This document shows, in pieces, positions 2,491-38,351 of a stretch of DNA of 40,891 nucleotides (its first letter is position 1; the number at the start of each line of letters is the position of its first letter). The stretch is taken from contig JAAZVW010000010.1 in assembly GCA_018623135.1 (NCBI GenBank), positions 1 to 40,891 of the forward strand, read 5' to 3'. The notes under the pieces were generated by a model, which searched no databases, was not told the DNA's origin, and saw only the letters and a list, made by a program, of their open reading frames with translations. The stretch comes from Pseudomonadota bacterium (GTDB lineage Bacteria; Pseudomonadota; Alphaproteobacteria; UBA1280; JAAZVW01). Position numbers and translations under genes: made by a program.

Positions 2491-4152
2491 TCAACGATCT
2501 GTCTTCTCTTCATACATACCTTCATCAGCAAGCTTAAGAAGGGCCTCAGGGTTTGTTCCATCTTCTGGATAGGTAGAGATACCAACAGAGGCGCCAATTT
2601 CAATGTCTGTACCGTTGAAATCAAAAGGTGTTGAAAGACTCTCTTTAATACTATCCACATGCGCTTGAGCTTGCTCTTTTGTGCTGTCTAGTAGGAGAAT
2701 TGCAAACTCATCACCGCCAAGACGGGTGGTTAGCGCACGCTTAGGAAATAGGGCTGTTAAACGCTCTGCAACGCCTTTTAGAATCGCATCACCAGCATCG
2801 TGGCCATATGTATCATTCACAGGTTTAAACTTGTTTAAATCAATGAATAGGATGCTATAGACATCAGCTTCATATGCAGCACCCTTTAAAGCCGTCATAA
2901 AGCCTGCACGGTTTGCTAAACCTGTAAGTGCATCAGACATGGCAACCTTACGCCTGTAATTGCGTGAGAGTTCACTCAGAGCTTCAGGCTTAAAGGCGAT
3001 AACCTTGTCTTTATCCTTTAAAATAGCCTGTAGAACAATAAGAGGAACATCCAGTGCATCGGCTGTCTTTTTAAGATCATCACCAAAGTGTTCAAGAGTG
3101 TTTGCAAGAATCTCTCTCGAGTCATAGATACGCTCTGTATCTTGACCTGAGAATGATAGGTATTCAGCTAATTGATCATTCTTCTTATTCTTTACAGCAC
3201 CAAAGGCAACCATTACACCACCCGCTGTAATAATAAGCCCTGCAAGCAAGTCATTCTGCGTAAACTCTTTAAGAGATAAACCTGTAAGAGGTTGTGTTGC
3301 CCATTCCCAAAATAAAGTAGAAAAAGGAGCTAAGGCTGCAAGAGCTAAATAATTCTCTGATTTAATCACATGCGAGCTGGCAAATTCAATATAGCGAATC
3401 GGTGCAATAATGAGTGCACCAACAACAAGACCAAAGAAAATACTCTCAGGATGTGTAAAATCTTGTAGTGTTGGCATGTTACCCATAATAAGCTGCCCTG
3501 TTTGCATGTGTATTAGGGCACCTATAAGGCTTAATGCTAGGAATAACATAGCAACCACAAACATAACATAGCCAATTACACGAGAACGAGCTTTAGGATC
3601 AGAACTTGTCTGCACAGCAACCTTGTGTGGTTTGTGAAATTCAGCAATAAACACACGTGCGGCCTGTAAGAATGAGAATAAGAACACAAGCCCATAGAGT
3701 GTTGCTTTGCTTTCACTCTGCACACCTGCACATACCCATAATACACCGCCTAGCACAATAAGAGAGCCTAGAATTTGCCACCTGCCTGTACTACGTGAAA
3801 GGAATAGCCAGCTTGCAATAAGGCTAGCAACAATACTAGAACGCTGAAGCAAAGCACCTTCTGCGGCTGTTACAAGAGAGAATATTTCAAAGCTTAATAA
3901 GAAGCTGACAATAAGAACCAGTCCATAGCCCCATGTGTCTACTGAGCGAAGTGTCTCTTTCGATAATGCACCATGACCTGCATAGGCGAGTAATACCCAT
4001 GCTGCAGAAATAAACAAAGAGCATGTATATATCATCGCATTTGCTTCAAGTACTTTAGAACTAAAGCCAACAGCAAGGTTACCTAAGCCCCATAGCACAG
4101 AAATAGAGAAAATGGCGAGTATCCATGCAATGCGAATATCTTTAGAACTCAT
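2491..4152 (-). CDS. EamA-like (DMT-type multi-TM) sensor/transporter domain fused to GGDEF diguanylate cyclase (island copy)
   Basis: Hydrophobic N-terminal ~10 TM EamA-like region; C-terminal DALTGLANRAGF...RLGGDEFAILL; start reassigned to MSSKDIRIAW overlapping upstream stop (ATGA). Confidence 0.85.
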   Translation of the reverse strand: MSSKDIRIAWILAIFSISVLWGLGNLAVGFSSKVLEANAMIYTCSLFISAAWVLLAYAGHGALSKETLRSVDTWGYGLVLIVSFLLSFEIFSLVTAAEGALLQRSSIVASLIASWLFLSRSTGRWQILGSLIVLGGVLWVCAGVQSESKATLYGLVFLFSFLQAARVFIAEFHKPHKVAVQTSSDPKARSRVIGYVMFVVAMLFLALSLIGALIHMQTGQLIMGNMPTLQDFTHPESIFFGLVVGALIIAPIRYIEFASSHVIKSENYLALAALAPFSTLFWEWATQPLTGLSLKEFTQNDLLAGLIITAGGVMVAFGAVKNKKNDQLAEYLSFSGQDTERIYDSREILANTLEHFGDDLKKTADALDVPLIVLQAILKDKDKVIAFKPEALSELSRNYRRKVAMSDALTGLANRAGFMTALKGAAYEADVYSILFIDLNKFKPVNDTYGHDAGDAILKGVAERLTALFPKRALTTRLGGDEFAILLLDSTKEQAQAHVDSIKESLSTPFDFNGTDIEIGASVGISTYPEDGTNPEALLKLADEGMYEEKTDR

Positions 4153-4367
4153 CGTTGTAGAACTCCCCATGTTGCAAGAGCGATAAGTACAACAATGGCA
4201 GTTGTGCATGCATAGAATGTCATGCGCCATACACGTTTTTGACCTTGCACTTCTAGCAAGCGATCAAGCTCATCATGACGACGCTCTTTTTCAATAAAGA
4301 CATCAATATCTTTGAGCTTGTATAGCTCTTCATCTGCTTTGGTTGGGTTGGTTCTACGTTCGTTCAT
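4149..4367 (-). CDS. Small single-TM protein with charged N-terminus, coupled to the EamA-GGDEF gene
   Basis: 72 aa; DIDVFIEKERRHDELDRLLEVQGQKRVWRMTFYACTTAIVVLIALATWG; paralogous to 38353-38607; ATGA overlap with downstream gene. Confidence 0.8.
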   Translation of the reverse strand: MNERRTNPTKADEELYKLKDIDVFIEKERRHDELDRLLEVQGQKRVWRMTFYACTTAIVVLIALATWGVLQR

Positions 4368-6051: not shown

Positions 6052-6079
6052 TTGACTTATCCCCACAAAGGCATATACT
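6052..6079 (+). promoter_or_regulatory. sigma70-like promoter for putative sRNA
   Basis: TTGACT - 16 nt - TATACT. Confidence 0.6.
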
Positions 6080-6085
6080 CATAAA

Positions 6086-6166
6086 TGGAATGAGACCAAC
6101 GTACATTCTGGGGCTTCAAATCCCCATACAAGATGGCTAGCACCGCCATCAATGGTGTTTTTTTTG
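6086..6166 (+). ncRNA. Putative small structured RNA
   Basis: Follows promoter; hairpins GGGG-cttcaaat-CCCC and GATGGC-tagcacc-GCCATC, then CACC...GGTG and T8 tract. Confidence 0.5.
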
Positions 6167-6220
6167 TGCCTTAATGCTGACCATTATTAAGGCCAATCAA
6201 ACGTGATATTCAATTCTGTA

Positions 6221-6311
6221 TCAGCCAGAAGGTGGTGCTATGTCCAATGGGTGCCCTGCATCCTAAAAACACCACGCCATTATCTTGTAGTGGATTTGAA
6301 CTTCTGGCTGA
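6221..6311. repeat. Long structured inverted element, perfect 11-bp terminal stem
   Basis: TCAGCCAGAAG (6221-6231) / CTTCTGGCTGA (6301-6311), inner GTGGTG/CACCAC; reverse complement resembles the 6086-6166 element. Confidence 0.7.
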
Positions 6312-6366
6312 CCTTTATCCGTCAGCCTTGTTAATTTATTATAATAAAACAAGGAAGTTCGACATT

Positions 6367-6966
6367 ATGAACACAATTAAACTAGCGCTTGTTTCTGCGC
6401 TTTATATTGCCGCTGTTACAGCTCAGGCTGAAACTTTTAATCTTAAAGACTATAGCCCTTACATTGGTGCTGAATTAGGTTCTGCGTCTGTAAATTATGA
6501 TTCTGTTGCTGGTCTTGATGCATCCTCTTTTTATGCAGATAGCTTTACCTTGGCAACTCTTCATGGTGGTTTAGAGTTAAATGAACGCTTAGCTCTTGAA
6601 GCTGGCTACACAAGAACAGATGAAAAGAACCAAAGCTTTGATTTTGGCGGCGGTGTAGATGGAACAACTCAAACTCAATTCTCTACAATTCATATTGATG
6701 CGATTGGTAAATTACCTGTAACAAAAAAAGTAAAAGCTCTTGCCTCTTTGGGGCTTGCTCACATTAATGTGGACTCTTCAGGTGTTGTTTCAGGCACCGA
6801 CTTTTCTGATGATGACAGTGATTTCGGCTGGCGCTTAGGTGCAGGTGCTCAGTATAAGCTTTCTGAGAAGGTTGATGTGCGAGGAATGCTTCGTTACATG
6901 GGCACAAACTTAGAAGGTGTAGAGCATACGCTAGAGTACGCTGTAGGCGTGAATTATAAGTTTTAA
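6367..6966 (+). CDS. Outer-membrane beta-barrel (porin/OmpA-like barrel family) protein
   Basis: Signal peptide MNTIKLALVSALYIAAVTAQA, alternating beta pattern, terminal ...YAVGVNYKF; start moved from 6232 to the ATG with AAGGAAG RBS. Confidence 0.85.
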   Translation: MNTIKLALVSALYIAAVTAQAETFNLKDYSPYIGAELGSASVNYDSVAGLDASSFYADSFTLATLHGGLELNERLALEAGYTRTDEKNQSFDFGGGVDGTTQTQFSTIHIDAIGKLPVTKKVKALASLGLAHINVDSSGVVSGTDFSDDDSDFGWRLGAGAQYKLSEKVDVRGMLRYMGTNLEGVEHTLEYAVGVNYKF

Positions 6967-8409: not shown

Positions 8410-8829
8410 TTAAGATATCGGATAAACCAAATTAGGTACTATACCTTTTTCTTTATCGTAATCTTTCCACTCATTTGTGGCTTGTATATGTTTACCCAAA
8501 TAATTGAGAGTAGGCTCAAAAGTTAAACGATATTCAGAAGCTCTTTTAACGGTGAATTTACCTTTACATGTGACTTCAATAAAACCTTTCACAACAAGTT
8601 CTTTAATCGCTCTATTACCTGTGCCTTTTGACATAGGGGTGTTATCCTCTATCTCTCTTGCGCTTAATGAGATACGACCGTTGTTATAGCTATTGTGCCT
8701 TTGTATGAGCAAAATCAAAACTCTAACAGCGGAATGGCTTAAACTTTTAAAAGCATCGCTATCCATAAGGTGATGGGTGATTCTGACAAAGGCAGGTCCC
8801 TTGTTGTGGCGATAATTTTGCTTAGTCAT
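8410..8829 (-). CDS. Winged-HTH protein, putative island replication/regulatory protein
   Basis: 139 aa; FKSLSHSAVRVLILLIQRHNSYNNGRISLSAREIEDNTPMSKGTGNRAIKELVVKGFIEV helix-turn-helix pattern. Confidence 0.7.
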   Translation of the reverse strand: MTKQNYRHNKGPAFVRITHHLMDSDAFKSLSHSAVRVLILLIQRHNSYNNGRISLSAREIEDNTPMSKGTGNRAIKELVVKGFIEVTCKGKFTVKRASEYRLTFEPTLNYLGKHIQATNEWKDYDKEKGIVPNLVYPIS

Positions 8830-9111: not shown

Positions 9112-9999
9112 TTACATGTTTTTATTTCTAGTATAGTTAGCGACATCCTCTCCTGAATATACAGTATCAAAAATCAAATTAATAAGGGTTGCAACTTCAT
9201 CATGAAACGGCCTATTAAAATGTTTCCGCATAAGTTGAGATAAATACCTCATCCAAAACAAATCCACCTTACCCTTTTGATTCAAAGAAACATGGCTACC
9301 AAATTCTTTTTCAAATTTCTTTCTATGTAACTTTTCAATTCTTTCAATTTCCTGATAAAACTGAATTAACGAGCTTTCAAGCGACTCATAAACTTGCTTA
9401 GAAATACATTTTTTATCTTTTTCATTAGAAATGATATCCATTGGAAATGTTAACAAATCATCAACTTCATAATTATGCTCAAAGAACTGCTCAATCCACT
9501 CTTTATAAAAAATTAATTTACCAAAAGAATGAGACTGTTTAGCCTTAAAAGCCCAATCAGCTTTAGAGCTCATTTCAAGAAAGTCAAAAAAGAAACTTAA
9601 ATAATTAGATTCATTATAATCTTTCAACTTATTTAAAACTAAAACACCAAAAGGAGATAAAAAGACATTAGAAACAAACGCAAAATTTTGAAGGTAATGC
9701 ACCTCAGGAACCAACCCTGAAGACTCTCCATTATACTGAATAGGAACAAAACCTTTTGTCACTCCCTTATATCTCTCATAAAAAAGACACAAAATATCAT
9801 AAGTAAGTTCATTCAAACCTGAAGGTAATAAACGGTGGGTTTTATCTACAAATTGACTTTCATCACATTTATCTTTTACGACAGGAAAAACATAACGTAA
9901 ATAAAAATACATTTCTTGCGGAATATGTTTTCCTGACTTATGTTTAATTAGAATAATATCTCTAATCCTAAGAATTTCATGCTCTAGTTTTGACAGCAT
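9112..9999 (-). CDS. Hypothetical protein translationally coupled to integrase
   Basis: 295 aa; start codon overlaps integrase stop (TAATG). Confidence 0.75.
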   Translation of the reverse strand: MLSKLEHEILRIRDIILIKHKSGKHIPQEMYFYLRYVFPVVKDKCDESQFVDKTHRLLPSGLNELTYDILCLFYERYKGVTKGFVPIQYNGESSGLVPEVHYLQNFAFVSNVFLSPFGVLVLNKLKDYNESNYLSFFFDFLEMSSKADWAFKAKQSHSFGKLIFYKEWIEQFFEHNYEVDDLLTFPMDIISNEKDKKCISKQVYESLESSLIQFYQEIERIEKLHRKKFEKEFGSHVSLNQKGKVDLFWMRYLSQLMRKHFNRPFHDEVATLINLIFDTVYSGEDVANYTRNKNM

Positions 10000-11201
10000 T
10001 ATTTATTCCCCAAACTCTTAATATAATCATCCCAATCCTGCATCATCTTTGTACGCTCTTCTATAAAAGTTGCACGGTCATAAGCACGATCAACATTGCT
10101 TTTTTTCTGATGGGCAAGCTGCAAATCAACAACCTCATGTGCATAGCCCAATTTTTCTTTAATCGTAGACATAGCAAGAGCACGAAAACCATGCCCCGTC
10201 ATCACCCCTTTATAACCCATGCGTTCAAGAGCCTTTAATATGGTATTATTGCTCATATGCTTACTCAACTGTATTTGACTTGGAAAAATATACCGACTTG
10301 TCGGACAAAGCTCTTTAAGCTCCCTTAGAATATCAATCACTCGGGCGGATAAAGGCACAACATGTTCACGATCCATTTTCATACGCTCAGCAGGAATGCG
10401 CCAAACCTTAGCTTCTAAATCAAATTCATCCCACGTTGCTTTAATCAACTCACTTGTACGCACAAAAGTAAGCATAAGCATTTCCACAGCTAATAAAGTG
10501 TGAGGGTATAATCTCGCTCTATTGCTTTTAAGCGTCCTTATGAACTCTGGAAGCTGTTCAGAGGTAATCGCCGCATAATGTGTTTTCTTATAGGGCTGCA
10601 AAGCCCCTTGAAGATCTGCCGCTGGATTATACTCACATCTACCTGAAATAATAGCATAACGAAAAACTTGGTCACATAAGGAACGACAACGAGACGCCAT
10701 CTCATTCGCACCTCTTGCTTCAACTTTTTTTAAAGCATCAAGAACTTGAAGCGGTTTAACTTCTTTAATTGGTAAATGACCAATTTCAGGTAAAATATTT
10801 TGATCTAATCTACGCCATGTATATCTTGCATGACTTTCTGACCAAGCAGGCTTTTGTGTGTCATACCATTCACAAGCAAGCTTTTCAAAAGTATTATCTG
10901 AATTCAGTCTTTGAAGGTGCTTTTGCTCTTTCTTGTGTGCAGAGGGGTCAATACCTTGAGTAAGAAGCTTTTTGTTTTGTTCTCTTAACTCTCGTGCTTC
11001 AGCAAGAGATATCAGCGGATAAGAACCTAAAGCGAGGCGTTTCTCTTTTTGCAAATAGCGGTACTTTAAGCGCCAAAGTTTGCTCCCCTTGGCTGTTACC
11101 TCTAAATACAGACCTCCACCATCAAAGAGCTTATAAGCCTTTTCTTTAGGTTTTGCTGTGCGACAAGCTTTATCAGATAACTTCACTGGGGGCATCTCCA
11201 T
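9999..11201 (-). CDS. P4-type tyrosine site-specific integrase
   Basis: N-terminal DUF4102-like KLSDKACRTAKPKEKAYKLFDGGGLYLEV...KRLALGSYPLISLAEARE; catalytic FVRTSELIKATWDEFD, MTGHGFRALAMS, LAHQ. Confidence 0.95.
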   Translation of the reverse strand: MEMPPVKLSDKACRTAKPKEKAYKLFDGGGLYLEVTAKGSKLWRLKYRYLQKEKRLALGSYPLISLAEARELREQNKKLLTQGIDPSAHKKEQKHLQRLNSDNTFEKLACEWYDTQKPAWSESHARYTWRRLDQNILPEIGHLPIKEVKPLQVLDALKKVEARGANEMASRCRSLCDQVFRYAIISGRCEYNPAADLQGALQPYKKTHYAAITSEQLPEFIRTLKSNRARLYPHTLLAVEMLMLTFVRTSELIKATWDEFDLEAKVWRIPAERMKMDREHVVPLSARVIDILRELKELCPTSRYIFPSQIQLSKHMSNNTILKALERMGYKGVMTGHGFRALAMSTIKEKLGYAHEVVDLQLAHQKKSNVDRAYDRATFIEERTKMMQDWDDYIKSLGNK

Positions 11202-11350
11202 TTTAACTTTTTATTTTACGCCCCTTTTCATGCCCCCAACTTTTTGAGACATTAGTAGGCATAGAAATACGTTATTACACTAAAGATAAGTGTATCTCTT
11301 TATTTTTAAAGTGTAAAATGGATTTTAGTGGACAGTATGAAATTTGAAAA

Positions 11351-11438
11351 TGGCGGAGACGACAGGATTCGAACCTGCGAGAACTTGCGCTCAACACGCT
11401 TTCCAGGCGTGCGCCTTAAACCACTCGGCCACGTCTCC
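11351..11438 (-). tRNA. tRNA-Ser(GGA)
   Basis: Reverse strand GGAGACGTGGCCGAGTGGTTTAAGGCGCACGCCTGGAAAGCGTG...GCAGGTTCGAATCCTGTCGTCTCCGCCA; long variable arm. Confidence 0.95.
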
Positions 11439-31628: not shown

Positions 31629-32312
31629 TTATTTACCGGACTCAGATGTAATAACGCTTAACGCTTTTTGCAAGACCTCTTCTACACAAAGCATGCTCGT
31701 ATCTAGGATATGCGCATCTTTGGCAGGGATAAGAGGGTCTGTTTTACGATTCGCATCGCGCGCGTCGCGCTCCACCATAGCCTGATAAATTTCGTCGAAG
31801 TTAGCAGATTTTCCCATATCTTGCAACTCTTTAACACGTCTTTCTGCACGAATTTTTGGATCTGCTTCTAAAAAGAATTTTACATCAGCATCCGGGCAAA
31901 TCGCTGTACCTGTATCTCGGCCATCCATAATCACCCCTTTATCTGCACCTTTTTCCTGAGCAAATTGCTGCTGGAAAGCCTTAAGTGCTTGGCGTACTTC
32001 TGTTTGAGCTGCAACAACAGAAGCTGCAGAACCAACCTCATCTGCCCTTAAGCTGCGCTGTACATTTTCGCCATCAATAAAAGTGCAAAAACCTGCCTCT
32101 GTGGGCTTAAAGTCATACCTTTCAAGCAAACTTATTGCCGCCTTAGCTGTTTGTTGCGTGTTTTGCAAATCACAATTATCTTTAAGACAAATAAACGCTG
32201 TCGCACGATAAAGCGTACCTGTATCCAAATAATGAAACCCCAAGTGCGTCGCTAAATTTTTAGAAAGCGTGCCCTTGCCAACGCCTGCCGGTCCATCAAT
32301 TGTAATAATCAT
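31629..32312 (-). CDS. cmk: Cytidylate kinase
   Basis: ITIDGPAGVGKGTLSKNLA; DGRDTGTAICPDADVKFFL; ERDARDANRKTDPLIPAKDA. Confidence 0.97.
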   Translation of the reverse strand: MIITIDGPAGVGKGTLSKNLATHLGFHYLDTGTLYRATAFICLKDNCDLQNTQQTAKAAISLLERYDFKPTEAGFCTFIDGENVQRSLRADEVGSAASVVAAQTEVRQALKAFQQQFAQEKGADKGVIMDGRDTGTAICPDADVKFFLEADPKIRAERRVKELQDMGKSANFDEIYQAMVERDARDANRKTDPLIPAKDAHILDTSMLCVEEVLQKALSVITSESGK

Positions 32313-33032: not shown

Positions 33033-33734
33033 ATGAAGAACCCTTACTTAATCATTACAGTTGACGGCACATCTGCGGTTGGCAAAGGCACGTTATCCAA
33101 AGCCATTGCAGCTAAATACCAACTCAAGTATCTGGATTCTGGTACAATTTATCGCGCCGCAGCGCTTAAACTCAAAAACAGCGGCGTGCAGATTACAGAA
33201 CAGTACAAAGCAACAGCCGAACACTTAGCATTGCTTGACCATAGCAGCGGCTGGTACGATTTCTATTGCATATCAGAAAAACATCAGACCTACGCAACAA
33301 TTGTTGATGGTAAAGATGTTAGCAACCAGCTAAGCAGCGAAGAAATTGCGCAACTTGCATCCATTGTATCAAGCGACCCTCAAATTCGTAAACACATGGA
33401 TATTTTTCAGCAGGCCTTTTTAAGCTTACTGGAACATAGCCCCTTTAAAGGTGTTTTACTTGATGGGCGCACTTCTGGTATAGATATCTTCCCAGAGGCA
33501 GATATTAAATTCTTCATCACATGCAGTAATGAAGTGAAAGCCAAACGCCGCCATTTGCAAACAGGTGAGCCTGAAGCTGACATTCTGGCATCTCTCATAA
33601 AACGAGATGCCCGAGAAAAGTTACGCAAAGCAGGTCAGGTACGCCCAGCAGATGACGCTATTATTGTTGATTCCACAAACCTTACAATCGAAGAAGTACA
33701 ACGGTTGGCTTTTAACGCCATCAACAACCGTTAA
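33033..33734 (+). CDS. Second cytidylate-kinase-like NMP kinase (paralog)
   Basis: ITVDGTSAVGKGTLSKAIA P-loop; DSGTIYRAAAL; DGRTSGIDIFPEADIKFF. Confidence 0.88.
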   Translation: MKNPYLIITVDGTSAVGKGTLSKAIAAKYQLKYLDSGTIYRAAALKLKNSGVQITEQYKATAEHLALLDHSSGWYDFYCISEKHQTYATIVDGKDVSNQLSSEEIAQLASIVSSDPQIRKHMDIFQQAFLSLLEHSPFKGVLLDGRTSGIDIFPEADIKFFITCSNEVKAKRRHLQTGEPEADILASLIKRDAREKLRKAGQVRPADDAIIVDSTNLTIEEVQRLAFNAINNR

Positions 33735-36680: not shown

Positions 36681-38351
36681 TTATCTACTAGAGCCTCCTT
36701 CGCCTTTTTCAGCATACATACCACCATCTGCAATTTTAAGAAGCTTTTCACCATCTGTCCCATCTTCAGGGAAGCAAGCAATACCAACAGAAGCGCCCAC
36801 AGCAATTTCTTGCCCATCAAAGGTAATCGGTTCAATTACTTTTGCTTTAAGCTCTTTTGCAAGTGTCTCTGCTTTCTCACGGTCTGCATCTAACACAAGA
36901 ACGGCAAATTCATCGCCCCCTAAACGCGTTGGCAAAGCCCTAAACGGAAACATCTCTGTCATACGTTCTGCAACAGCTTTAAGCACCGCATCACCAGCTT
37001 CATGACCATAAGTATCATTAACCGGTTTAAATTTATCTAGATCTATATACAGAAGAGAAAATTTATCTGCCTCGTAAGGCGCACCTTTAAGGGTTGTCAT
37101 AAACCCAGCACGATTTGCAAGCCCTGTAAGCGCATCCGACATCGCTACTTTTTTACGATAAGCGCGCGCCACTTCTTTAAGCACATCTGGCTTAAACGCC
37201 AACGTCTTTTGTTTATCATCGACTAACGCCTGAATGGTTTGTATATGTACAGAAAGTGCTTTAGCAGATTTGTCAAAATCACTGTCATAGTGTTCTAGCG
37301 TGTTTGCTAAAATTTCACGAGAGTCCTCAACCATTTGCGGATCTTGCCCTGCATAAAAAAGCTCCTCCTGCCACTTAGGTGTTTTCTTTGAATGACCTCT
37401 TGTAAGAGCAATAAACAAACCACCAAAAGTAATTAGAGCCCCTGCTAACAAGTCTTGATTAGAAATAGCTTTTAAGCTTAAACCTGTAAGAGGTGATGTT
37501 GCCCACTCCCAAAACAGTGTAGAGACAAAAGATAAAGAGGTTACTGTTGTAAAATTTTCTGCTTTGATAATATTAGAACTCGAAAACTCCAATATACGTG
37601 AAGGCGCCACAATAATAACACCAGCGATCATACCTGCAAATATAGTTGGGGCATGAATAAAATCAGCAAGCGTTGGTAACGCTTCAATAGATTCCTGCTG
37701 TGCCTCTTGAGCAAGCGATATAAGCAAAGTACCAAACAAAAACAACGTACTGATAACAAACATGACAAAACCCACGACACGAGCACGTGATTTAGGGTCA
37801 TTATCTTGTGCTGCCTTCGCATGTGGTCTGTGTAATTCTGCAACAAAAATACGCGAAACCTGCAAGGCACCATACAAAAATGCAAGTAAATATATAACCC
37901 CTAAATCCTCACTATTTAGATCATTACATACTAAAACCACACCAATTGTGATAACCGCAACACCTAAAATTTGATACCGATCAGGTTGCCTGCCTAAAAA
38001 GAACCAACTACCTAAAAGCCCTAAAAGAACACTAATCTTTTGCAACATAGTCCCTTCAGTTGAAGTAACATGAGAAAAAAGAAGCATCCCAATAATATAA
38101 CTCATCATTAGAATTGCGCCATAAACCCATGTATCGACGGAGCGCATACTTTCTTTAGCAAGAGGTCCATGACCTGCCCTTATTAACAACACAAGCGCAC
38201 AACTAACAAATGCTGCACAAGAATAAATAACAGGATTCACCTCCAAAACAACCGCACTATAGCGACCCATAACAGTGTTAATACCCAAAAACACTAATAT
38301 AGCAACAAATGCCTGAACCCAGCCTCTTATTAAAACAGCTTTATCTTGCAT
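36681..38351 (-). CDS. EamA-like multi-TM + GGDEF diguanylate cyclase (core copy)
   Basis: Paralog of 2491-4152; DALTGLANRAGF...RLGGDEFAVLVLD. Confidence 0.9.
   Translation of the reverse strand: MQDKAVLIRGWVQAFVAILVFLGINTVMGRYSAVVLEVNPVIYSCAAFVSCALVLLIRAGHGPLAKESMRSVDTWVYGAILMMSYIIGMLLFSHVTSTEGTMLQKISVLLGLLGSWFFLGRQPDRYQILGVAVITIGVVLVCNDLNSEDLGVIYLLAFLYGALQVSRIFVAELHRPHAKAAQDNDPKSRARVVGFVMFVISTLFLFGTLLISLAQEAQQESIEALPTLADFIHAPTIFAGMIAGVIIVAPSRILEFSSSNIIKAENFTTVTSLSFVSTLFWEWATSPLTGLSLKAISNQDLLAGALITFGGLFIALTRGHSKKTPKWQEELFYAGQDPQMVEDSREILANTLEHYDSDFDKSAKALSVHIQTIQALVDDKQKTLAFKPDVLKEVARAYRKKVAMSDALTGLANRAGFMTTLKGAPYEADKFSLLYIDLDKFKPVNDTYGHEAGDAVLKAVAERMTEMFPFRALPTRLGGDEFAVLVLDADREKAETLAKELKAKVIEPITFDGQEIAVGASVGIACFPEDGTDGEKLLKIADGGMYAEKGEGGSSR

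Follow-up and report, generated by a model that had tools for sequence, protein, structure and literature searches.

Features of the locus

The window, i.e., the whole stretch of DNA analyzed here, comprises 40,891 nt of contig JAAZVW010000010.1 in the assembly GCA_018623135.1 (Alphaproteobacteria; UBA1280; JAAZVW01), and the locus of interest lies on its forward strand between positions 6052 and 6966. A gene at 6367-6966 encodes a 199-aa outer-membrane beta-barrel protein of the OMP_b-brl family (PF13505, Pfam E=2.1e-18), which we presume to be the regulatory target, and it is preceded by the ribosome-binding site (RBS) GGAAGTTCGA at 6353-6362. The leader starts with a predicted sigma-70-like promoter at 6052-6079 (TTGACT, a 16-nt spacer and TATACT, with 10 of 12 consensus matches). 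As our promoter scan returned three sites, against 2.0 in shuffled sequence, what argues for this promoter is its position, ahead of box a1 just as in phage P1. It is followed by two short boxes, a1 (TTCAAATCC, 6115-6123) and b1 (TACAAGAT, 6127-6134), which are complementary to the segments a' (GGATTTGAA, 6292-6300) and b' (ATCTTGTA, 6282-6289), respectively, of a predicted C4-like antisense RNA at 6221-6311. A third stretch at 6138-6147 (TAGCACCGCC) can pair with 6231-6240 (GGTGGTGCTA), as read from the sequence and the alignment; by reading, it is also present in the related loci L004, L008, L015 and L017.

Two hairpins accompany these elements. The first, found by scanning at 6139-6165 (AGCACC/GGTGTT followed by T8), is terminator-like, and the same four relatives retain its 6-bp stem although the pairs themselves differ, again by reading. 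Hairpins between b1 and the RNA occur in 20 of 84 loci, about twice the 9.3 found in shuffled sequences; the hairpin of the window itself is unscored in this stricter terminator scan. The second, a weak terminator or attenuator hairpin at 6306-6327 (GGCTGACC-TTTATC-CGTCAGCC), lies between the RNA and the gene, and since its 5' arm shares nucleotides with the 3' strand of the outer helix of the RNA, the two structures compete. A terminator-like hairpin in this overlapping position behind the RNA is seen in 37 of the 84 loci, whereas 6.0 are expected from shuffled sequences.

The two arms are complementary rather than duplicated

The first-pass annotation described 6104-6165 and 6221-6311 as two diverged inverted copies of the same ~85-nt element. 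The sequences that it quoted are indeed present at these positions, and the similarity exceeds chance: when the arms are aligned locally, the score is 28 versus a shuffled mean of 14.4, a value reached by one of 1000 shuffles, and under looser gap costs it is 91 versus 61.8, reached by 18 of 1000. The comparison with shuffled sequences, which had been proposed as the means of refuting the observation, bears out the similarity of the arms. However, the true match is a single block of about 19 nt, TTCAAATCCCCATACAAGAT (6115-6134, plus strand) against TTCAAATCCACTACAAGAT (6282-6300, minus strand), made up of 9 nt, a gap and 8 nt, plus a short GGTG/CACC motif. There is no ~85-nt element in duplicate, and the two halves differ in structure and role.

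The same annotation also called for a search of the genome and its relatives. The shared part, TTCAAATCC-n-TACAAGAT, occurs only at the two sites in the window when the whole 1.52-Mb genome is searched for the pattern, but relatives in which the pairing is kept do exist. One of them is L004, from a genome (G087) of another family, where the same 250-nt leader (71% identical) with a like RBS precedes a homologous outer-membrane barrel gene. Here the pairing is retained although both of its sides have changed, CTTCAAATCC/GGATTTGAA being replaced by CTTGATAACC/GGTTATCAA. As the arms have changed together, the inverted similarity is explained by base-pairing between two parts of the locus rather than by homology of copies. 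Hence, 6104-6165 and 6221-6311 appear to be the target boxes and the antisense RNA, respectively, of a C4-like unit.

The downstream half is predicted to fold as a three-helix RNA

We built a covariance model, R1, from five relatives (L004, L008, L010, L015 and L017), leaving out the window; in its structure a helix P1 encloses helices P2 and P3. In the five-sequence alignment, 99.2% of the cells pair normally, compared with 32-45% when the partner is slid; both sides change in 10 of 24 pairs (matched by 3 of 500 shuffles) and in 20 cells (matched by none of 500), though with only five sequences in the set these covariation figures are inflated by kinship. Applied to the window, R1 detects 6221-6311 at 65.7 bits (E=9.1e-13), which supports a model-based reading of the downstream half as a three-helix RNA recognizable on its own. 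In this predicted fold, P1 is formed by 6221-6231/6301-6311 and surrounds the hairpins P2 and P3, as in C4 RNA; P2 (6232-6237/6270-6275) carries the internal loop AUGUCCAA...CUAAAAAC and a hairpin at 6249-6254/6258-6263; and P3 is formed by 6277-6281/6289-6293. The segment b' corresponds to the P3 loop plus a closing base, and a' is the J3/1 strand, which is joined directly to the 3' strand of P1.

R1 copies are found in 37 of the 289 genomes searched (the source genome counted), with at most nine per genome. The source genome has two further copies, C24:3605-3687 and C21:26816-26907. In the latter (L078, minus strand), P3 is extended and there is no clear a/b box by score (rank 28); GTGTTGT and AGCTAGCT upstream appear complementary by eye. 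Further relatives are L008, L010, L015, L017, L007, L014 and L009, among which L017 comes from a metagenome-assembled genome labelled Magnetococcales. When genome contigs were scanned with the pattern, five of 10 matches belonged to the family, two of them from UBA2136, and the other five look like chance.

The RNAs tend to match their own upstream boxes and ribosome-binding sites

For every locus, the RNA was compared with the stretch upstream of it and with the corresponding stretches of the remaining loci, the score being complementarity in two correctly ordered blocks. The own upstream box was the best partner in 25 of 29, 41 of 56 and 53 of 83 loci in three sets that overlap and are not independent (about one expected), and in the alphaproteobacterial 83-locus set the own mean was 14.57 versus a permuted mean of 8.39 (sd 0.40). 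The window is among the loci whose own pairing ranks first. Boxes differ even among the copies of one genome, and 42 distinct a 8-mers are found among the rank-1 loci. An initial comparison of duplex energies over 210 nt upstream was noisy. These results are consistent with the upstream boxes being the best-matched partner of the RNA; a' and b' of the window copy, like those of C4, are complementary to a1 and b1 upstream on what would be the same transcript. The suggestion that the two parts give RNAs that anneal to each other is thus borne out to the extent that upstream boxes and downstream RNA are complementary and co-vary by locus.

The RNA also shows complementarity to the translation start of the gene behind it. 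In the window, GGAAGTTCGA (6353-6362) and TTGAACTTCT (6296-6305) can form 10 bp, including two G-U pairs, covering the Shine-Dalgarno sequence of the OMP_b-brl gene. This gene has the lowest duplex energy of the 37 genes in the window (-12.0 kcal/mol versus a mean of -5.7), a value equalled by 1.2% of random 30-mers. Across the 65 loci whose start could be identified, a' together with the P1 3' strand scores 6.43 against its own RBS versus 5.51 (sd 0.14) against those of other genomes (z=6.5, none of 2000 permutations), a figure that is partly post hoc, since the test was devised after several loci had been viewed. Reversed controls gave z from -1.0 to 1.1, codons from +36 were null and +6..+36 gave z 2.5. 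In multi-copy genomes, the own RBS exceeds the other loci of the same genome modestly (6.83 versus 6.25). The excess emerges only when the segment of a' plus the P1 strand is compared with the RBS; in the 80 nt behind the RNA, a longest-stretch score gave no own-locus excess. As the match uses a strand of helix P1, this helix would need to open for the pairing to form. RBSs complementary to a' plus the P1 strand are thus found in the group and in the window, whereas the a2/b2 arrangement of phage P1 is absent.

Relationship to C4 and sRNA-Xcc1

C4 is a classic antisense RNA of phages; the transcript from which it comes is also the one from which its target is cut. The anatomy of the window locus parallels it. 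The phage P1 record lists, in order, a promoter, a1 (48255-48261), b1 (48269-48276), the C4 RNA (48343-48419), a2, b2 (48452-48459) and icd (48470). In our reading of its sequence, the J3/1 strand of the P1 RNA, which links P3 to the 3' strand of the outer helix, contains a', and b' is in the P3 loop; the window shows the same placement. C4 of phages P1 and P7 (RF01695) and the window locus therefore share the order of promoter, a1, b1, three-helix RNA and gene. With respect to the ribosome-binding region behind the RNA, the parallel is looser, the complementary segment in this family being a' plus the P1 strand. On the other hand, a2/b2 precede icd in phage P1 whereas the window has no clean a2/b2 pair, and phage C4 precedes icd/ant whereas the window RNA precedes an outer-membrane barrel gene. 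C4 of P1/P7 is described as acting in trans, with its 5' end made by RNase P (PMC5320573, PMC8546580), and Weinberg et al. (2010) listed both c4 and c4-a1b1 as motifs (PMC2864571).

A second relative is sRNA-Xcc1 (RF02221), first found in Xanthomonas (PMC2996969) and present in integron cassettes upstream of symE (PMC12444791), which has a similar three-helix fold and likewise lies ahead of a protein gene. In the RF02221 consensus, the P2 internal loop reads AAUACAAUA...GGAAUAA, differing from that of the window copy given above. The window copy returned nothing in Rfam at gathering score or at E<=10, including 6S, tmRNA and riboswitches. The window copy reaches neither the gathering score of RF01695 (45 bits) nor that of RF02221 (53 bits), with no match to either up to E=10, and it is therefore not filed under either family. 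The source genome had no match to RF02221 at E<=0.01, and our R1 search of phage P1 did not find the C4 RNA. Intermediates do connect these groups: L010 scores 40.7 bits against RF02221 and 27.4 bits against RF01695 (below the respective cut-offs); RF02221 matches 56 of 385 alphaproteobacterial genomes at E<=0.01, seven above the cut-off, with 10 copies in genome G293 and 11 in G098; and R1 recovers some of the loci found by RF02221 (L060, 41.3 bits; L031, 33.1 bits; L026, 28.0 bits). Thus, the window copy seems to be linked with sRNA-Xcc1 and C4 by its anatomy and by intermediate sequences, with no direct model match. By analogy, the window RNA would work like C4 and represent a divergent variant of a known RNA type that is multi-copy in Alphaproteobacteria.

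The Group 1 sRNAs of Acinetobacter baumannii likewise comprise many C4-like copies per genome with variable specificity regions; they belong to Gammaproteobacteria and are called phage-derived and possibly retargeted (PMC5320573). In the sections of that account consulted here, our locus-by-locus upstream-box matching and RBS test have no counterpart.

A putative C4-type antisense unit and its alternatives

We consider it probable (roughly three in four) that we are dealing with a C4-type antisense unit, the RNA of which represses the gene behind it. Four lines of evidence point this way, namely, the conserved fold, the locus-specific box match, the excess of RBS complementarity and the P1-like order; transcription, processing, trans action and the repressive outcome are what we infer from them. 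A transcript from the promoter at 6052-6079 would run through a1/b1, the antisense RNA and the OMP gene, and the RNA would be cut out of, or terminated within, this leader transcript. The J3/1 strand together with the P1 3' strand would then pair with the Shine-Dalgarno region of the gene and block its translation. The P3 loop and the J3/1 strand could also pair with a1/b1 of the leader, which would either tune the amount of free RNA as a decoy or feed back on the leader transcript.

Alternatively, the leader may be purely cis-acting, with a1/b1 pairing intramolecularly with the downstream half in a pseudoknot switch, like a riboswitch or an attenuator, and with no free antisense RNA. All complementary parts do lie on one transcript, the terminator-like hairpins overlapping P1 are well above expectation, and in the window a second hairpin lies between b1 and the RNA; several pairings are mutually exclusive. 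However, the boxes vary freely within one genome, which is better explained by antisense pairs that are specific than by a ligand pocket common to all copies, and the same anatomy in phage P1 belongs to a trans-acting RNA (PMC8546580). We therefore regard this alternative as unlikely, though worth keeping in mind. Control of the gene through attenuation or translational coupling by a leader peptide, with the conserved AUGUCCAAG at 6241 as its start, is far less probable. In many copies AUGUCCAAG does follow a purine-rich stretch, and the reading frames of some are alike (MSK..PK.T), but the frame ends after eight codons in the window and six in L010, and the start codon is missing in L082, L095 and L100, while the RNA fold is retained. 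The suggestion that an inverted pair of DNA elements was inserted here, either as a small non-autonomous repeat or as a sequence forming a cruciform, is hardly credible. The complementary arms do lie ~150 bp apart, and a tyrosine integrase gene (9999-11201) is ~3.7 kb off, but the pattern is unique to this site in the genome, the two arms vary in concert from family to family, and it is as an RNA that the fold is conserved. A cruciform, moreover, is unneeded for the complementarity and leaves both the P1/P2/P3 fold and the RBS complementarity unexplained.

Genes downstream of the C4-like RNAs

If the antisense reading is correct, a divergent multi-copy branch of C4 before non-phage genes would mean that this scheme is used well beyond lysis-lysogeny control, and the window locus would point to a specific candidate mechanism for keeping an outer-membrane protein gene off. 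A scan of 49 downstream proteins identified seven HTH_3, three OMP_b-brl (in the window, L100 and one other member), three Phage_pRha, two PD-(D/E)XK and two YdaS domains, and one each of KilA-N, Bro-N, N6_N4 methylase, TM2 and BamE. A PHROGs scan added antirepressors; the OMP_b-brl protein of the window had no PHROG match. Some copies therefore lie in phage-like control units as in phage P1, and others precede cell-envelope or other genes. In L045 the RNA copy is directly ahead of a DNA methylase gene (N6_N4_Mtase), which suggests that a restriction-modification system is under its control. G293 (L060-L075) and G098 (L056-L074) each have about ten C4-like RNAs, many of them ahead of small HTH or 46-aa basic proteins in the former and ahead of a related family of ~100-aa proteins with no assigned function in the latter.

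With pairing boxes particular to each copy, the family amounts to a collection of naturally occurring antisense pairs that differ from one another, and it offers a direct test of the purpose of the puzzling upstream a1/b1 box. We tentatively speculate, with considerable doubt, that in Alphaproteobacteria an RNA of phage immunity has been adapted as a general guard of genes, in which the C4-like RNAs of a genome, as many as about ten, all different and each with its own leader box, silence individual genes for surface proteins, regulators, restriction-modification systems or antirepressors, and in which a resident copy could silence the same gene arriving on a mobile element.

Other features of the window

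The region 9112-11438 contains a tRNA-Ser(GGA) and then a phage-type tyrosine integrase with an Arm-DNA-bind_3 domain (the gene at 9999-11201), and a phage-replication-like HTH protein is encoded at 8410-8829; together these are probably an integrated element. We considered whether the T-loop-like TTCAAATCC block is a tRNA or att remnant and rejected this, as ARAGORN finds only the tRNA-Ser (11351-11438), whose 3' end is unlike it; no second copy of this 3' end was found in the window. An integron attC site was also rejected, its core motifs not being seen by eye, and searches of plasmids and viral contigs returned no match. Elsewhere in the window, two related membrane proteins are encoded 30 kb apart (2491-4230 and 36681-38351), each with transporter-like N-terminal and GGDEF-like C-terminal parts as judged by eye. 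From their translations, two different cytidylate-kinase-like genes lie close together (31629-32312 and 33033-33734), and a Fic/DOC family protein with an N-terminal Fic_N domain (Pfam) is encoded at 1092-2234.
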